This document shows positions 21,725-33,738 of a stretch of DNA of 34,311 nucleotides, piece after piece. The position numbers were made by a program, and so were the translations under genes. The stretch covers positions 1 through 34,311 of the forward strand of contig JAGOFZ010000004.1 of the NCBI GenBank assembly GCA_017996955.1, given 5' to 3'. Under the pieces are notes generated by a model. That model made no database searches and was not told the origin of the DNA. It worked only from the letters and a program-made list of their open reading frames with translations. Origin of the DNA: Longilinea sp. Its GTDB lineage: Bacteria > Chloroflexota > Anaerolineae > Anaerolineales > Anaerolineaceae. The stretch's first letter is position 1. Each line of letters opens with the position of its first letter.

Positions 21725-22123
21725 TTACTGCATTAGCGGTCTAAACTTATACCCATAAACCAGAATCCCCCGATCATTGCCATCCTGCCGGATCTTGCGG
21801 GTCACCATTTCAACCGGCATGCCAATCTCCACCGCCTGGTCGCCCAGGTCAGTCAATTGTGCGGTTATCACCGGGCCCTCGTCCAATTGAACCAGCGCTA
21901 CGGTGTAGGGCGCCTGGGCTTCGTAACCCGCCGGGGCATCCTGCATCATCGTGAACGAAAACACCTTGCCGCGTCCGCTAAAGCCATAGGGGGTTTTGGC
22001 CTCGCCGCCGCAGTGCGGGCAAACATCCCGCGGCGGAAAAATCTTGCCATCGCAGTGCGGGCAGGTTTCGCCCACCAGGGAATATCGCTGTTTCTTCAAA
22101 CGCCAGTGACGTGGAATTTCCAT
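21725..22123 (-). CDS. DUF35 Zn-ribbon/OB-fold protein of the HMGCS-thiolase complex
   Basis: The 132-residue protein has an N-terminal rubredoxin-like zinc ribbon (CPHC at 21-24 and CPHC at 35-38) and then an OB fold (GRGKVFSFTMMQDAPAGY, APYTVALVQLDEGPVITAQLTD). In archaea DUF35 proteins bridge thiolase and HMG-CoA synthase and share a CoA site, which channels acetoacetyl-CoA. The order here, after the synthase and thiolase genes, is the archaeal one. It is the last gene of the operon, 69 nt after the thiolase gene and followed by a strong terminator. Confidence 0.9.
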   Translation of the reverse strand: MEIPRHWRLKKQRYSLVGETCPHCDGKIFPPRDVCPHCGGEAKTPYGFSGRGKVFSFTMMQDAPAGYEAQAPYTVALVQLDEGPVITAQLTDLGDQAVEIGMPVEMVTRKIRQDGNDRGILVYGYKFRPLMQ

Positions 22124-22192
22124 TTTTTCTGCTTCTCCTTCAAGTGTATCGTGCCAAAGTGTACCGGTAACAGTCTATCAATTCCTATCAAG

Positions 22193-23368
22193 TTACCGAT
22201 TCTGGCGCTCAACTCGTTCCAAAACATGGGTCACGGCAGTTGCCGCTGTCCCGCCCAGGTTTTGAACCAGCGCTCGCCGGGCTTTACCAAGTTGATTAAC
22301 CCCGGCTTCGCCGCGGAGTTGCAGTGTCGCTTCCACAATTTGATACATCCCCGTGGCCCCCAGCGGATGCCCGCGGGCCTTCAGCCCGCCCAGCGTGTTG
22401 ATCGGCAGTGCGCCGTTGAGGTTGAACCGTCCCTCAGCCGCCGCCTGTGCGGCTTGCCCGTGCGGGGCCAGTCCGGCGGCCTCCAGCGTCAGCGCGGCAT
22501 GAATGGACGATGTATCGCTCAATTCAAAGAAATCCACATCTTGCGGCATAATCCCGGCCATCCGGCAGGCGCGTTCAATCGAAAGCCGCGCGGCCTCAAA
22601 GCGCAGGAAATCCGGTCGGTCGTGCAGCGCCAGGCGGTCAATTACCGAAGCAGACCCCGTCACCTTGACCAGCGGGTGCGCAAACCCGGCCGGCACACGG
22701 TCCACGGTGGTCAGCAGTACCGCCGCCGCACCGTCAGCATAAGGCGCAATATCGAACAAATTCAGCGGATCACAAATCGGCTCCGCCCCGGCATACACCT
22801 CCGGCTTGATCGCTTTGCGATACATCGCGTTGGGGTTCCCGGCGCCGTTGGCGTGCGCCAGCAGCGGGAAGGCGGCAAATGCCTCGCGGGGCGGCCGGTA
22901 TTCATACAGGTAACGCTGCATCAGCAGCCCGGCTTGCGCTGTCGGGGTCAGCCCTTCCACGGCTTCCCAGTCATAATCGGTCATTTCAGATATGGCCGAC
23001 TCTAACTCCGAGCCAACCATATCGGTGTACTTTTCAACCCCCACCACCAGCGCTGTATCCACCATTCCACTGGCTACTGCCAGGTATCCCATCCGGAAGG
23101 CGGCTGCGCCAGAGGCGTCGGCGGCTTCAACTGTAAAGGCCTCAATCCCGGTCAGGCCGGTATTATCTGCCAGCAGCGCCCCCAGGTTGGACTGGTGCGA
23201 GACCGTCGATGCCAGCATATTGCCGATATAGAGCGCCTGCGGCTTCAATTCCATTCCGGCTTCGTGCCGCGCCGCCAGCATGGCCCGCGCCGCCAGCGTC
23301 CGCAGTGAAAGTTCCCAATGCTCCCCGACTGGAATTTGCCCAATGCCTGCAATCACAACATCGCGCAT
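22193..23368 (-). CDS. archaeal-type thiolase lacking the active-site Cys and His
   Basis: The 391-residue protein aligns, from my memory of the archaeal SCP2-like acetyl-CoA acetyltransferases, over its whole length: a GIGQIPVGEHWELSLR start, NLGALLADNTGL, VGVEKYTDM, GGLKARGHPLGATG with His334, and QNLGG. But the nucleophile motif EAACASG reads EAADASG (Asp84, codon GAC), and the archaeal EVHDAFT motif reads ELSDTSS (Ser284 for His). Ordinary thiolysis or condensation therefore looks unlikely. It may serve as a scaffold for the synthase and DUF35, or have another activity. It follows the synthase gene by 3 nt. Confidence 0.88.
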   Translation of the reverse strand: MRDVVIAGIGQIPVGEHWELSLRTLAARAMLAARHEAGMELKPQALYIGNMLASTVSHQSNLGALLADNTGLTGIEAFTVEAADASGAAAFRMGYLAVASGMVDTALVVGVEKYTDMVGSELESAISEMTDYDWEAVEGLTPTAQAGLLMQRYLYEYRPPREAFAAFPLLAHANGAGNPNAMYRKAIKPEVYAGAEPICDPLNLFDIAPYADGAAAVLLTTVDRVPAGFAHPLVKVTGSASVIDRLALHDRPDFLRFEAARLSIERACRMAGIMPQDVDFFELSDTSSIHAALTLEAAGLAPHGQAAQAAAEGRFNLNGALPINTLGGLKARGHPLGATGMYQIVEATLQLRGEAGVNQLGKARRALVQNLGGTAATAVTHVLERVERQNR

Positions 23369-23371
23369 GGG

Positions 23372-24445
23372 TTACTCCTCCAACTTGCCGCGGTAGCGCA
23401 CATAAGTGGCGTAATCAATTTGTGTGCGCCGGGCAATATAATCCGTTGTCAGCGGCGCCCGGCTGCGGCGCTCTTCCAACGCTTCGGTCACAGTCAGCGC
23501 CATCGCATCTGAGCCTGCCCCCGACCCAAAGGACGTAATCAAAATCCGGTCGCCCGGTTTGGCCGCATCCAGGATGGCGGTCAGCCCAATGATGGCCGCC
23601 GCCGCATAGGTATTGCCAATCACCGGCGAGAGCAGCCCCGGCTTGATCTGCTCCGGCGTAAAGCCCAGCATCCCTGCCACCCGCTGCGGGAATTTGGTGT
23701 TAGGCTGATGAAATACTGCATAGGCGTAGTCGCTGGCCTGCGTGCCGGTGGCTTCCATCAGGTGATGCGCCGCCTCATAGACATGTTTGAAATAAGCCGG
23801 TTCGCCCGTAAAGCGCTGCCCGTGTTCGGGATAATGCTGGTAAGGCCGCCGCCAGAAATCCGGCGTGTCGGTCACAAAAGAGTAGGTCGCCTCAATCACC
23901 GCCAGGGCTTCCTCGGCTGGCCCTAAAATATATGCCGCCGCGCCCGAGGCCGCCGTGTATTCCAGCGCGTCGCCGGGCCGCCCCTGGGCCGTATCCGCGC
24001 CAATAGCCAGGGCATAGTCGCCCATCCCCGAGCCTACCAGCCCAATGGCTGCCACCATCGCTTCGGTGCCGGCTTTGCACGCAAACTGCCAGTCACCAGC
24101 CTGCACATGGGGCGCCGCGCCAATGGCCTCAGCCACCACCGTCCCACTGGGTTTGACCGCATACGGATGGGACTCAGAGCCCACCCACACCGCTCGCAGC
24201 GCATCCGGCGCAATGCCAGCCCGGTGCAGCGCATTGCGGGCAGCTTCAATGGACATGGTAATCACATCCTCATCCAGCCCGGCAACGGCCTTTTCTTTAA
24301 CCGGCAGTCCACCGCCGGATTTGCCTGTCCACACCCGCGCCACCTCTGCCGCGGGCAGCCGGTAGCGGGGGACATACGCCCCGTACCCGATGATTCCAAC
24401 CGGTCGGTTGGGTTTTAGGAGTAAAGCAGGTTGGGTCTCAGTCAT
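23372..24445 (-). CDS. archaeal-type 3-hydroxy-3-methylglutaryl-CoA synthase
   Basis: The 357-residue enzyme condenses acetyl-CoA with acetoacetyl-CoA in the mevalonate pathway. The start [15 protein letters not shown] and the blocks [15 protein letters not shown] (with Glu91), [13 protein letters not shown] (nucleophile Cys123), [25 protein letters not shown] and VFHQPN (His246) are those of archaeal HMGCS. All three catalytic residues are present, unlike in the neighbouring thiolase. The ATG overlaps the reductase stop (ATGA), so translation is coupled. Confidence 0.95.
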
Positions 24446-25722
24446 CGTTTTTCCTCACGAATTTCTTTAAGTATCATTTCAGCCCGGTCCAGCCGTACCG
24501 CTTTTTCTTGCACCATGCGGTCTGCCACCCGTTGAACTTCATCAGATGTTGCTCCAGCCGCCACCGCGACCTGCCGGGCGTGCAGCGTCATATGCCCGCG
24601 CTGAATCCCTTCAGTTGCCAGGGCTCGCAGCGCCGCCAGATTTTGTGCCAGTCCTACCGCAGTGATAATTTCCGCCAGGTCTCGTGCGGTCTTCACCCCC
24701 ATCAGTTTCAGTGCCGCGCGCGCGCCGGGGTGCACCCGGGTTGCCCCGCCCACAATCCCCACCGCCATCGGCAGTTCCAGCTCGCCCACCAGGTTGCCGT
24801 CTTCGTCCTTACTCCAGGTAGAAAGGCTGGTGTACCGCCCTGCCCGCGCCGCATAGGCATGCGCCCCGGCTTCAATCGCCCGCCAATCGTTGGCCGTTGC
24901 CAGTACCACGGCATCAATCCCGTTCATAATACCCTTGTTGTGGGTCGCTGCCCGGTAGGGGTCTGCCGCTGCAAACGCCCACGCCGCCAGAATGCCATCC
25001 CGCACCTGCTCGGCGCCAAAATCGCCAAACGCCAGGTCGGTCAGCGGCACCATGCCGCGAGCCCGCGCCAGCCGCCGGTCTGCCAGGTTGGATAAAATCC
25101 GCAGGTGCACCCGCCCGCCGCTGATCTCTGCCACCAGTGGCGTCAAGCGCTCGGTCGCTGTGTTAATGGCGTTGGCGCCCATTGCGTCTCGCACATCGTA
25201 GATCAGATGCACAACCACAAAGGGTCCAATCGGTGATTCTTCAATCAACCGCACTTCCAGATCGCGCGGTCCACCGCCCAGCCGCTCCAGCACCGGGTCA
25301 ATCGCCGCGGCGGCTGCCAGCAGCCGGTCTTTCTGGGCCAGCAAACGCTGCTGCGCCCCCACCGGGTCTGATAGATTCAGGACCTGCATCTGCCCAATCA
25401 TCAGAGGCTCGTCGCTGCTGGTGGTAAAGCCGCCCCCGCCGCGCACCAGCCGCGCCATGAAAGATGCCCCGGCAACAATCGAGGGTTCTTCCACCACCAT
25501 CGGCACCCATACCGCCCGCCCATTGATCACAAAGTTTTGCGCAATTCCCAGGGGCAGGGCATACGTGCCAATCACATTCTCAATCATGTGGTCAGCCTGT
25601 TCCAGGCTTAACCCGGTGCAGCCGCTGAGCGCATCGAATTCTTCATCAGTCAGGCTGACCTGCCGGGCAATTTGCTTCCGGCGTTCATCAGGCGTCAGAT
25701 CGTAAAATTTAGGTGTGCTCAT
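24442..25722 (-). CDS. mvaA: HMG-CoA reductase, class II
   Basis: The 426-residue enzyme reduces HMG-CoA to mevalonate, or the reverse. Class II marks are [17 protein letters not shown] (48-64) and no membrane anchor. Catalytic candidates are the Glu of VEEPS (77-81), Lys263 in THNKGIMNG, Asp279 in ATANDWRA and His381 in MTLHARQVA. Class II is found in many bacteria and a few archaea, while most archaea use class I. With HMGCS next to it, a biosynthetic role in isoprenoid supply is more likely than mevalonate breakdown. It is the first gene of the operon. Confidence 0.95.
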
Positions 25723-31657: not shown

Positions 31658-32770
31658 ATGGCAGTCATTTACCCATTTACCGCAATTGTTGGTCAAGAAC
31701 GCATGCGCCGCGCCCTGGTCTTGAATGCCGTCAATCCTCGTATTGGTGGTGTCTTGATCCGCGGCGAGCGTGGCACGGCAAAATCCACCGCTGCCCGCGC
31801 CCTTGCCGAACTATTACCCGAAGTCAACGTCGTTAGCGATTGCCGCTTTGGCTGCGATCCCGAAACCCCCAACACCTGGTGTACCGAATGTCGTGAACGC
31901 GTAGCCCGGGGTGAAACGCTGCCCGTCGCCACCCGGCGGACCTCTTTTGTCAACCTGCCGGTCTCGGCAACCGAAGACCGTGTGGTTGGTACCCTCGATA
32001 TTGAAAAAGCTATTCAGCAGGGCGAGCGCCGTTTTGATGCCGGTATTCTGGCGGCTGCAAACCGCGGCTTGCTGTACATAGATGAAGTCAACCTGTTGGA
32101 TGATCATGTCGTGGATGTGCTGCTCGATTCTGCCGCCATGGGCATGAACATCGTCGAGCGTGAAGGCATCTCCTTCACCCACCCGGCGCGCTTTATCCTC
32201 GTCGGCACCATGAACCCCGAAGAAGGCGACCTGCGCCCTCAGCTTCTGGACCGCTTTGCCCTCTCCGTTGAAATCTTTGGCATTCGCGAACCGCGCGAAC
32301 GCGTGATTATTATGGAACGTAACCTCGCCTTTGAATCCGATGCCGAGCGTTTCCGCCAGGATTGGCTGCCCAAAGAAGGCGAGCTCTCCCGCCAGATTGA
32401 ATCTGCCCGCCGCCTGCTGGATCAGGTCACGCATACCCGCCGCGACCTGCTCTCCATCGCCGCGCTTACCTCTTCCCTCAATGTGGACGGCCACCGCGCC
32501 GACCTCGTCATCCTGAAAGCCGCACGCGCTCAGGCCGCCTTTGAAGGCCGCACCGCCATCACCGACCGGGATATTGCCCTGGCAGCTGAACTGGCCCTGC
32601 CCCACCGCATCCGCCGCGGCCCGTTCAACCAGTCCGAACTCTCAATGGAACAACTGCAAGATCGCATTGAGCAGCTTCAGGGCAGCGTCAGCACCGGGCA
32701 GCAGCGTGAAGAAGAAGGCGAAGAGACCGACGAAGACACCACCGGACAAAAAAAAAAGTTTCTAACGTAG
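31658..32770 (+). CDS. cobalto-/Mg-chelatase-like AAA+ ATPase (short frame product)
   Basis: The 370-residue product has Walker A GERGTAKST (36-44) and a Cys cluster (62, 66, 75 and 78) between SDCRFGC and WCTEC. Walker B is LLYIDEVN (138-145), with sensor residues GTMNPEEGDLRPQLLDRF and an arginine-rich lid. An acidic Glu-rich linker (350-362) ends it at QKKKFLT. This is ChlI/BchI-like and the N-terminal half of the putative cobaltochelatase family. The stop lies 10 nt after ten A's. A -1 shift there continues into the VWA frame, giving about 693 residues; see the slippery site at 32748-32758. Confidence 0.9.
   Translation: MAVIYPFTAIVGQERMRRALVLNAVNPRIGGVLIRGERGTAKSTAARALAELLPEVNVVSDCRFGCDPETPNTWCTECRERVARGETLPVATRRTSFVNLPVSATEDRVVGTLDIEKAIQQGERRFDAGILAAANRGLLYIDEVNLLDDHVVDVLLDSAAMGMNIVEREGISFTHPARFILVGTMNPEEGDLRPQLLDRFALSVEIFGIREPRERVIIMERNLAFESDAERFRQDWLPKEGELSRQIESARRLLDQVTHTRRDLLSIAALTSSLNVDGHRADLVILKAARAQAAFEGRTAITDRDIALAAELALPHRIRRGPFNQSELSMEQLQDRIEQLQGSVSTGQQREEEGEETDEDTTGQKKKFLT
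32748..32758 (+). promoter_or_regulatory. slippery site for -1 frameshift (A_AAA_AAG in a run of ten A's)
   Basis: Ten A's (32748-32757) precede G. In the ATPase frame the last codons read CAA AAA AAA AAG, so 32752-32758 is the A_AAA_AAG heptamer known from dnaX. A -1 slip enters the VWA frame at GTT (32758) with no stop between. RNA-polymerase slippage adding one A would do the same. No convincing downstream stem-loop was seen. Confidence 0.65.
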
Positions 32771-32823
32771 AGCTGGGTGAAGGCCCAAACCCCGAAGGCG
32801 AACCTGAACCCGGCCCTGATTCG

Positions 32824-33738
32824 GTGTTTGACCAGTCCACCGCGCACTGGTGGGAAGGTGGCCAGAAGGTAAAACCCACCGAATCCTTCATGCCCCGGCG
32901 GCTGGATACCCCTCTGGATAAAATGATCCGGCGTTATGCCGGGCGGCGTTCCCGCACCCGTACCGAGCGCAAGCGCGGCCGCTATGTGCAGGCGCGTCCT
33001 TCCAACGGCAATCCCTACGACCTGGCCTTTGATGCCACCCTTCGCGCGGCCGCCCCATTTCAACGCCGTCGCGCCGAACAGCGCCAGCGGGTTGCTTTTG
33101 CCGTCCAGCCCGGCGATTACATGCGCAAGGTGCGCGTTCGCCGCGCCGCCAACCTCATCCTCTTCCTGGTGGATGCCTCCTGGTCCATGGCTGTTGCCGA
33201 GCGCATGGCTGCCACCAAGGGCGCCATCCTCTCCCTGCTGACGGATGCCTATCAGCGCCGCGACCGCGTGGGCCTGATTGTCTTCCAGAAAGACCGCGCC
33301 ACTCTGGTGCTGCCGCCCACCAACTCGGTTCTGCTGGCGCAGCGCGCCCTGCTCAACATCCCGGTGGGGGGCAAAACCCCGCTTGCCGCCGGTCTGCAGA
33401 TGGCTACCGATGTTCTGCGTCACGAAAAAGTCTTTCACCCAGACGTAATGCCCCTGCTCCTGGTCTTGACCGATGGCGCGGGCAATGTTTCAATGGGCCA
33501 CCTGCCCCCGCAGGAAGAAGCCTACCGCGTGGCAGAAGGCATCGCCGAAGATAAGACCCATTGCGTTGTCATCAATATGGAGCACGCCGCTTTTGACCAG
33601 GGGCTGGCTCAGGCGCTGGCTGAACATCTTAATGCCCCCTGCTACACCATTACCGAACTGAGAGCCGAAAGCCTCTATCTGGCAGTCAAGCAAGAGATGC
33701 ACCAGCGCGGCTCAGTTAATATCCATGAGTTGAAGTAG
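32824..33738 (+). CDS. VWA-domain (ChlD/cobaltochelatase-like) part, -1 frame
   Basis: The 304-residue stretch from a GTG at 32824 has a basic lead (IRRYAGRRSRTRTERKR) and a von Willebrand A domain. Its MIDAS residues are in VDASWSM (116-122, D-x-S-x-S), GKTPLAAGL (Thr) and VLTDGAGN (Asp). This is the integrin-like half of ChlD/BchD-type proteins. The frame is open upstream to the slippery site at 32758 through an acidic Pro-rich linker. The GTG has no ribosome site, so I believe it is mainly made as the C-terminal part of the fused protein. A sequencing error in the A-run is the other reading. Confidence 0.85.
   Translation: MFDQSTAHWWEGGQKVKPTESFMPRRLDTPLDKMIRRYAGRRSRTRTERKRGRYVQARPSNGNPYDLAFDATLRAAAPFQRRRAEQRQRVAFAVQPGDYMRKVRVRRAANLILFLVDASWSMAVAERMAATKGAILSLLTDAYQRRDRVGLIVFQKDRATLVLPPTNSVLLAQRALLNIPVGGKTPLAAGLQMATDVLRHEKVFHPDVMPLLLVLTDGAGNVSMGHLPPQEEAYRVAEGIAEDKTHCVVINMEHAAFDQGLAQALAEHLNAPCYTITELRAESLYLAVKQEMHQRGSVNIHELK

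Follow-up and report, generated by a model that had tools for sequence, protein, structure and literature searches.

In the mevalonate operon of Longilinea sp., the archaeal-type thiolase has lost its catalytic Cys and its HDAF His, and in many Chloroflexota the catalytic residues of this operonic thiolase have gone repeatedly and long ago. Our data suggest that the protein is probably kept as a catalytically dead, non-catalytic subunit of a complex with HMG-CoA synthase (HMGCS) and a DUF35 protein. The gene lies in the window, the whole 34,311-nucleotide stretch of DNA that was analysed, in a minus-strand operon (21725-25722) with the gene order HMG-CoA reductase (HMGR), HMGCS, thiolase and DUF35 (Table 1). 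The genes for thiolase, HMGCS and DUF35 stand together here and in relatives, and their products correspond to the subunits of the archaeal complex, the thiolase by fold and HMGCS and DUF35 by sequence only. The earlier note had placed the gene in an otherwise intact mevalonate complex; this holds for the operon genes and their homology, from which the complex itself would follow. Elsewhere in the window (31658-33738, plus strand), neighbouring ATPase and VWA-type ORFs correspond to one half each of TIGR02442 (putative cobaltochelatase) and to Mg-chelatase subunits; as parts of a split protein, both score under the curated cut-off.

Table 1. Genes of the Longilinea mevalonate operon, in order of transcription.
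Gene product	Position	Strand	Remarks
HMG-CoA reductase (HMGR)	24442-25722	-	opens the operon; overlaps the start of HMGCS
archaeal-type HMG-CoA synthase (HMGCS)	23372-24445	-	TIGR00748 equivalog; best solved relative 6esq_I
Cys-less archaeal-type thiolase paralogue (pseudo-thiolase)	22193-23368	-	Asp84, Ser284; His334 kept
DUF35 protein (bridging)	21725-22123	-	zinc ribbon (Cys21/24/35/38) and OB fold; best solved relative 6esq_E

The thiolase gene is an uninterrupted frame of 391 amino acids. Its nucleophile site reads VEAADASG where the archaeal counterpart has EAACASG, with Asp84 encoded by GAC at 23117-23119, and its HDAF site reads ELSDTSSI where the counterpart has E(V/L)HDAFT, with Ser284 encoded at 22517-22519. 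Alignment to the solved archaeal thiolases 7yvy and 6esq places Cys in column 84 and His in column 284, in agreement with the earlier proposal that Asp84 and Ser284 replace the catalytic Cys and His. Of the residues that mark an archaeal-type acetoacetyl-CoA thiolase, the nucleophilic Cys and the HDAF His are therefore missing, and the GHPxGATG His is present as His334 in RGHPLGATG. The intact frame and conserved GHPLGATG reported before are confirmed, as is the retention of Cys, His and Glu (C123/H246/E91) in the neighbouring HMGCS. The HMGCS scores 517 bits against TIGR00748 (cut-off 353), and the thiolase scores 310.6 bits against the NCBIfam equivalog NF053570 (M. thermolithotrophicus thiolase), below the 600-bit cut-off. 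The thiolase fold is kept. The AlphaFold model has a mean pLDDT of 96.5, its top VIA-align match is the archaeal-complex thiolase 6esq_A (Z 61.6, rmsd 1.5 Å, 385 residues), and Foldseek ranks P. furiosus 7yvy first, followed by 6et9 and 6esq.

The same loss is found throughout the closest relatives. In a sample of 61 genomes from the same family and order, together with 80 named genomes, the mevalonate operons carry two kinds of thiolase, one fully intact (EAACGSG, HDAFS, GHPVGATG, QNIGG) and one without the Cys, the latter taking in cultured Leptolinea tardivitalis (locus L073). Cys84 is absent from all 105 distinct closest operonic homologues, counting the Longilinea protein, and column 84 holds Gly (61), Asp (19), Glu (19), Gln (3), Ser (2) or Asn (1). 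Most of these proteins have also lost His284 or His334: only 52 of the 105 retain His in column 284, and only 6 in column 334, where 87 have Asn or Phe. The earlier view that the rest of the protein is conserved thus applies to the GHP His of the Longilinea protein, but this third catalytic His is gone in most relatives. All three residues are present in 56/56 intact proteins, operonic or unlinked. In a tree built without the catalytic columns, the Cys-less operonic copies of this sample form one clade (100/97), separate from both the intact operonic and the intact unlinked copies. The HMGCS Cys, His and Glu, in turn, are kept at every covered position (all three are covered in 138 matches) and, in a wider sample, in 60/60 proteins. 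One operon (L051:2757-6549, minus strand) contains HMGCS, dead thiolase, DUF35 and intact thiolase consecutively, so that both versions occur together.

A Cys elsewhere in the active site might have taken over as nucleophile. The Longilinea thiolase has only two cysteines, C199 and C268. Column 268 is the most Cys-rich of the Cys-less set, but it is Cys in only 48 of the 105 proteins and Tyr in nearly all intact copies; no conserved substitute nucleophile is therefore found among the 105, and the loss of catalytic Cys stands. A chance change is ruled out by the absence of Cys84 from every closest operonic homologue. A sequencing or assembly error is likewise ruled out, as the change occurs in more than 100 genomes, among them the finished H. 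aurantiacus chromosome.

Beyond the order, we surveyed 60 HMGCS loci, the majority of them in other orders and classes. The adjoining thiolase is intact at 30, Cys-less at 27 and not detected at 3. Most of the other orders of the class have an intact thiolase, and Cys-less copies appear in further families (for example L200, L203, L207, L212, L222 and L230) and outside the class (L241-L249). They reach Herpetosiphon and probably Chloroflexus. A single origin for all Cys-less operonic copies, as the one clade of the first tree would have it, is rejected by this wider sampling: the combined tree, in which bootstrap had not settled, requires at least six changes of Cys state. Therefore, with the archaeal thiolases as outside group, repeated loss of the Cys is the natural reading. 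In the alignment with solved thiolases, the Cys column is occupied by Ser in S. tokodaii ST0096 (4yzo); the HMGCS operons surveyed here are all bacterial. In the DUF35 proteins of L242-L249 (e.g. L248:5694-6089, plus strand; L249:1214-1663, minus strand) the four zinc cysteines are gone and the OB fold region is kept. This holds for 8/8 sampled operons of two out-of-class families (Herpetosiphon/Chloroflexus-like), and all other near-full-length DUF35 matches in the wider sample have the four cysteines. At three HMGR-HMGCS loci (L227, L236 and L239), no thiolase or DUF35 was detected within ~3.5 kb.

Strong purifying selection acts on the dead clade. The dN/dS ratio is 0.03-0.18 in 16 independent close pairs of dead copies, similar to the 0.055-0.12 of six intact pairs, and per-site entropies of the dead and intact sets are correlated (Spearman 0.60). 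Dead and unlinked intact copies both retain 87 of the 198 positions that are conserved in the basal operonic intact copies, and 29 are lost in the dead copies only. These relaxed positions cluster at the active-site motifs, with 19 of the 29 in the Cys84, HDAF, GHP and NIGG motifs or in the 114-146 loop.

The dead copy also goes together with HMGCS. Among the 61 genomes, in counts and tests that ignore shared ancestry, an HMGCS above its cut-off and a dead thiolase occur together in 48 and are both missing from 10; in 2 others HMGCS is accompanied by an intact operonic thiolase in place of the dead copy, and 1 contains a dead fragment but no HMGCS that passes the cut-off. Across the 61 genomes, no such association with HMGCS is seen for the intact archaeal-type thiolase. 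A search for Dxr of the MEP pathway, as distinct from DXR-II, found it in none of the 61, and in 59 a mevalonate kinase exceeds its cut-off. Therefore, the mevalonate pathway is needed; it is very probably the sole isoprenoid route in these genomes, and HMGCS has to work.

What the dead subunit might contribute is suggested by two known complexes. In the archaeal complex, CoA is bound at an interface built from all three proteins, and in PhlACB the non-catalytic thiolase-fold subunit (HMGCS-like PhlA) is required for a functional complex (PMC6392133). Because of these two precedents, we infer that the dead thiolase would still bind DUF35 and HMGCS and would provide its share of a three-protein CoA-binding surface. 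This surface may let HMGCS fold, assemble or bind CoA esters properly. Acetoacetyl-CoA would be made by a separate thiolase, in Longilinea the unlinked paralogue L002 and elsewhere often a classical thiolase, and would get to HMGCS by diffusion or docking. Some data weigh against the subunit reading. Only 9 of the 198 positions are conserved in operonic copies yet lost in unlinked intact ones, the complex in bacteria is a prediction, and the three loci noted above have HMGCS without a detected adjoining thiolase; HMGCS may not always need the operonic thiolase. In addition, residual CoA chemistry is possible in dead copies that keep His284. A more specific role, which we regard as conceivable but rather doubtful, is that of a receiving dock, in which the dead thiolase binds delivered acetoacetyl-CoA in the old shared CoA site and passes it to HMGCS. 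If so, the complex would still have a channel, with its first reaction handed over to a separate enzyme on several independent occasions within one phylum.

A second, intact thiolase is indeed found in the Longilinea genome (78% complete): L002, on contig C12, has ESACSSG, HDAFS and GHP motifs. No TIGR01930 thiolase over cut-off was found in this genome. An intact archaeal-type thiolase is missing from ten dead-copy genomes, and 9 of them have a TIGR01930 thiolase; the exception, without any other intact thiolase, is G033 (80% complete). TIGR01930 thiolases are present in 20/20 dead-copy genomes of the class/phylum sample, and taking both samples together a further intact thiolase accompanies the dead copy in 67 of 68 genomes. 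By comparison, the operonic copy is intact in 32 genomes; in 7 of these no other thiolase was found, and all seven keep the Cys (Fisher p = 0.001 for dead-copy versus intact-copy genomes, ancestry not corrected). The idea of a scaffolding pseudo-thiolase served by another thiolase, already put forward from the sequence, thus gains support from conservation, purifying selection, co-occurrence with HMGCS, L002 and these genome counts, whereas scaffolding itself is drawn from analogy. Two further groups of altered thiolases were observed. In the Longilinea genome, a Cys-less thiolase with ENGPASG, HDAFT and GHP is followed by its own DUF35 (L003:1501-3044, plus strand), unlinked to mevalonate genes. 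The unlinked thiolases L184, L185, L190 and L191 have Thr for Cys (AATATG or AATAGG) with HDAF and GHP present, and form a separate long-branched clade.

The presence of intact paralogues raises the alternative that the dead copy pairs with an intact archaeal-type paralogue into a mixed thiolase, comparable to chain-length factor and ketosynthase. Such a paralogue occurs in 38 of the 48 HMGCS-positive dead-copy genomes, and the L051 operon has dead thiolase, DUF35 and intact thiolase side by side. However, nine dead-copy genomes at least 90% complete lack an intact archaeal-type paralogue, and in the class/phylum sample most dead-copy genomes yielded no copy besides the operonic one. Therefore, an obligate heterodimer is ruled out as a general rule, and we consider pairing of this kind an unlikely account of the gene.

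It is also improbable that the protein has become an enzyme for another reaction, such as aldol/retro-aldol chemistry or malonyl-CoA decarboxylation, which is known from Cys-less KSQ domains. Across the clade, columns 84, 284 and 334 have gone from invariant (0 bits) in intact copies to 1.8-2.5 bits, with at least 30 different residue combinations, and the decarboxylation suggested earlier finds no support here. Position 286 is mostly Ala, Ser, Thr, Asn or Val, not Cys or His, and the gene remains tied to HMGCS and one pathway. Retention of His284 in some dead copies would fit a new activity, and there are precedents in aldolases of the thiolase fold that have Gly in place of the Cys and partner with DUF35, and in T. 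brucei SLP, which has weak malonyl-CoA decarboxylase activity (PMC12329534). The YDCY motif of Sal and the YDHF motif of Ltp2 are not conserved, however, and the Longilinea protein has SDTS. Since no replacement catalytic set is conserved, a new activity is disfavoured. That the gene is a decaying, functionless duplicate is scarcely credible: the decayed motifs and repeated Cys loss would suit a relic, but frames are uninterrupted over many families, dN/dS is far below 1, the closest relatives are 57-71% identical and the gene co-occurs with HMGCS.

The thiolase/HMGCS/DUF35 gene set is known; a dead thiolase within the set, arisen repeatedly, is apparently new. We found no literature report of a pseudo-thiolase or of thiolase loss in Chloroflexota mevalonate operons, in a search that left subscription journals mostly outside. 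The archaeal complex has been explained as a channelling device: the thiolase step is unfavourable, and its product, acetoacetyl-CoA, is passed on to HMGCS. Here, a whole clade and several further lineages have kept the genes for the assembly but no longer have the thiolase step. Should the dead subunit prove necessary, channelling cannot be all that the complex is for, a question open to comparison of the live and dead versions that occur in nature. The finding also bears on metabolic models: in many genomes, among them those of the cultured strains Leptolinea tardivitalis YMTK-2 and Herpetosiphon aurantiacus 114-95T, the protein annotated as thiolase is very probably unable to produce acetoacetyl-CoA.

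Dead members of the thiolase superfamily have been retained in other systems. The chain-length factor of type II polyketide synthases is a dead paralogue and the obligate partner of its own active paralogue; some of our genomes, in contrast, have no detected intact archaeal-type paralogue. The steroid aldolases Ltp2/ChsH2 and Sal/Shy (6OK1, 9MYR) share with the Longilinea protein a thiolase fold without nucleophilic Cys and are bound to DUF35, but Ltp2 and Sal have conserved replacement catalytic motifs (PMC12329534), which the dead clade lacks. The thiolase/HMGCS/DUF35 complex of Methanothermococcus thermolithotrophicus (6ESQ, 6ET9) consists of the same three proteins by sequence and fold; 6ESQ is the closest solved relative of HMGCS and DUF35 and supplies the best VIA match of the thiolase model. 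The thiolase of that complex has Cys85 and makes acetoacetyl-CoA (PMC6392133, PMC12329534), whereas the Longilinea thiolase, without the nucleophile, very probably cannot. The PhlACB Friedel-Crafts acyltransferase of Pseudomonas protegens (5M3K) has the same three-subunit architecture and is the mirror image of the present case: there PhlA, the HMGCS-like subunit, is dead and PhlC, the thiolase-like one, active, and here the thiolase is dead and HMGCS intact.
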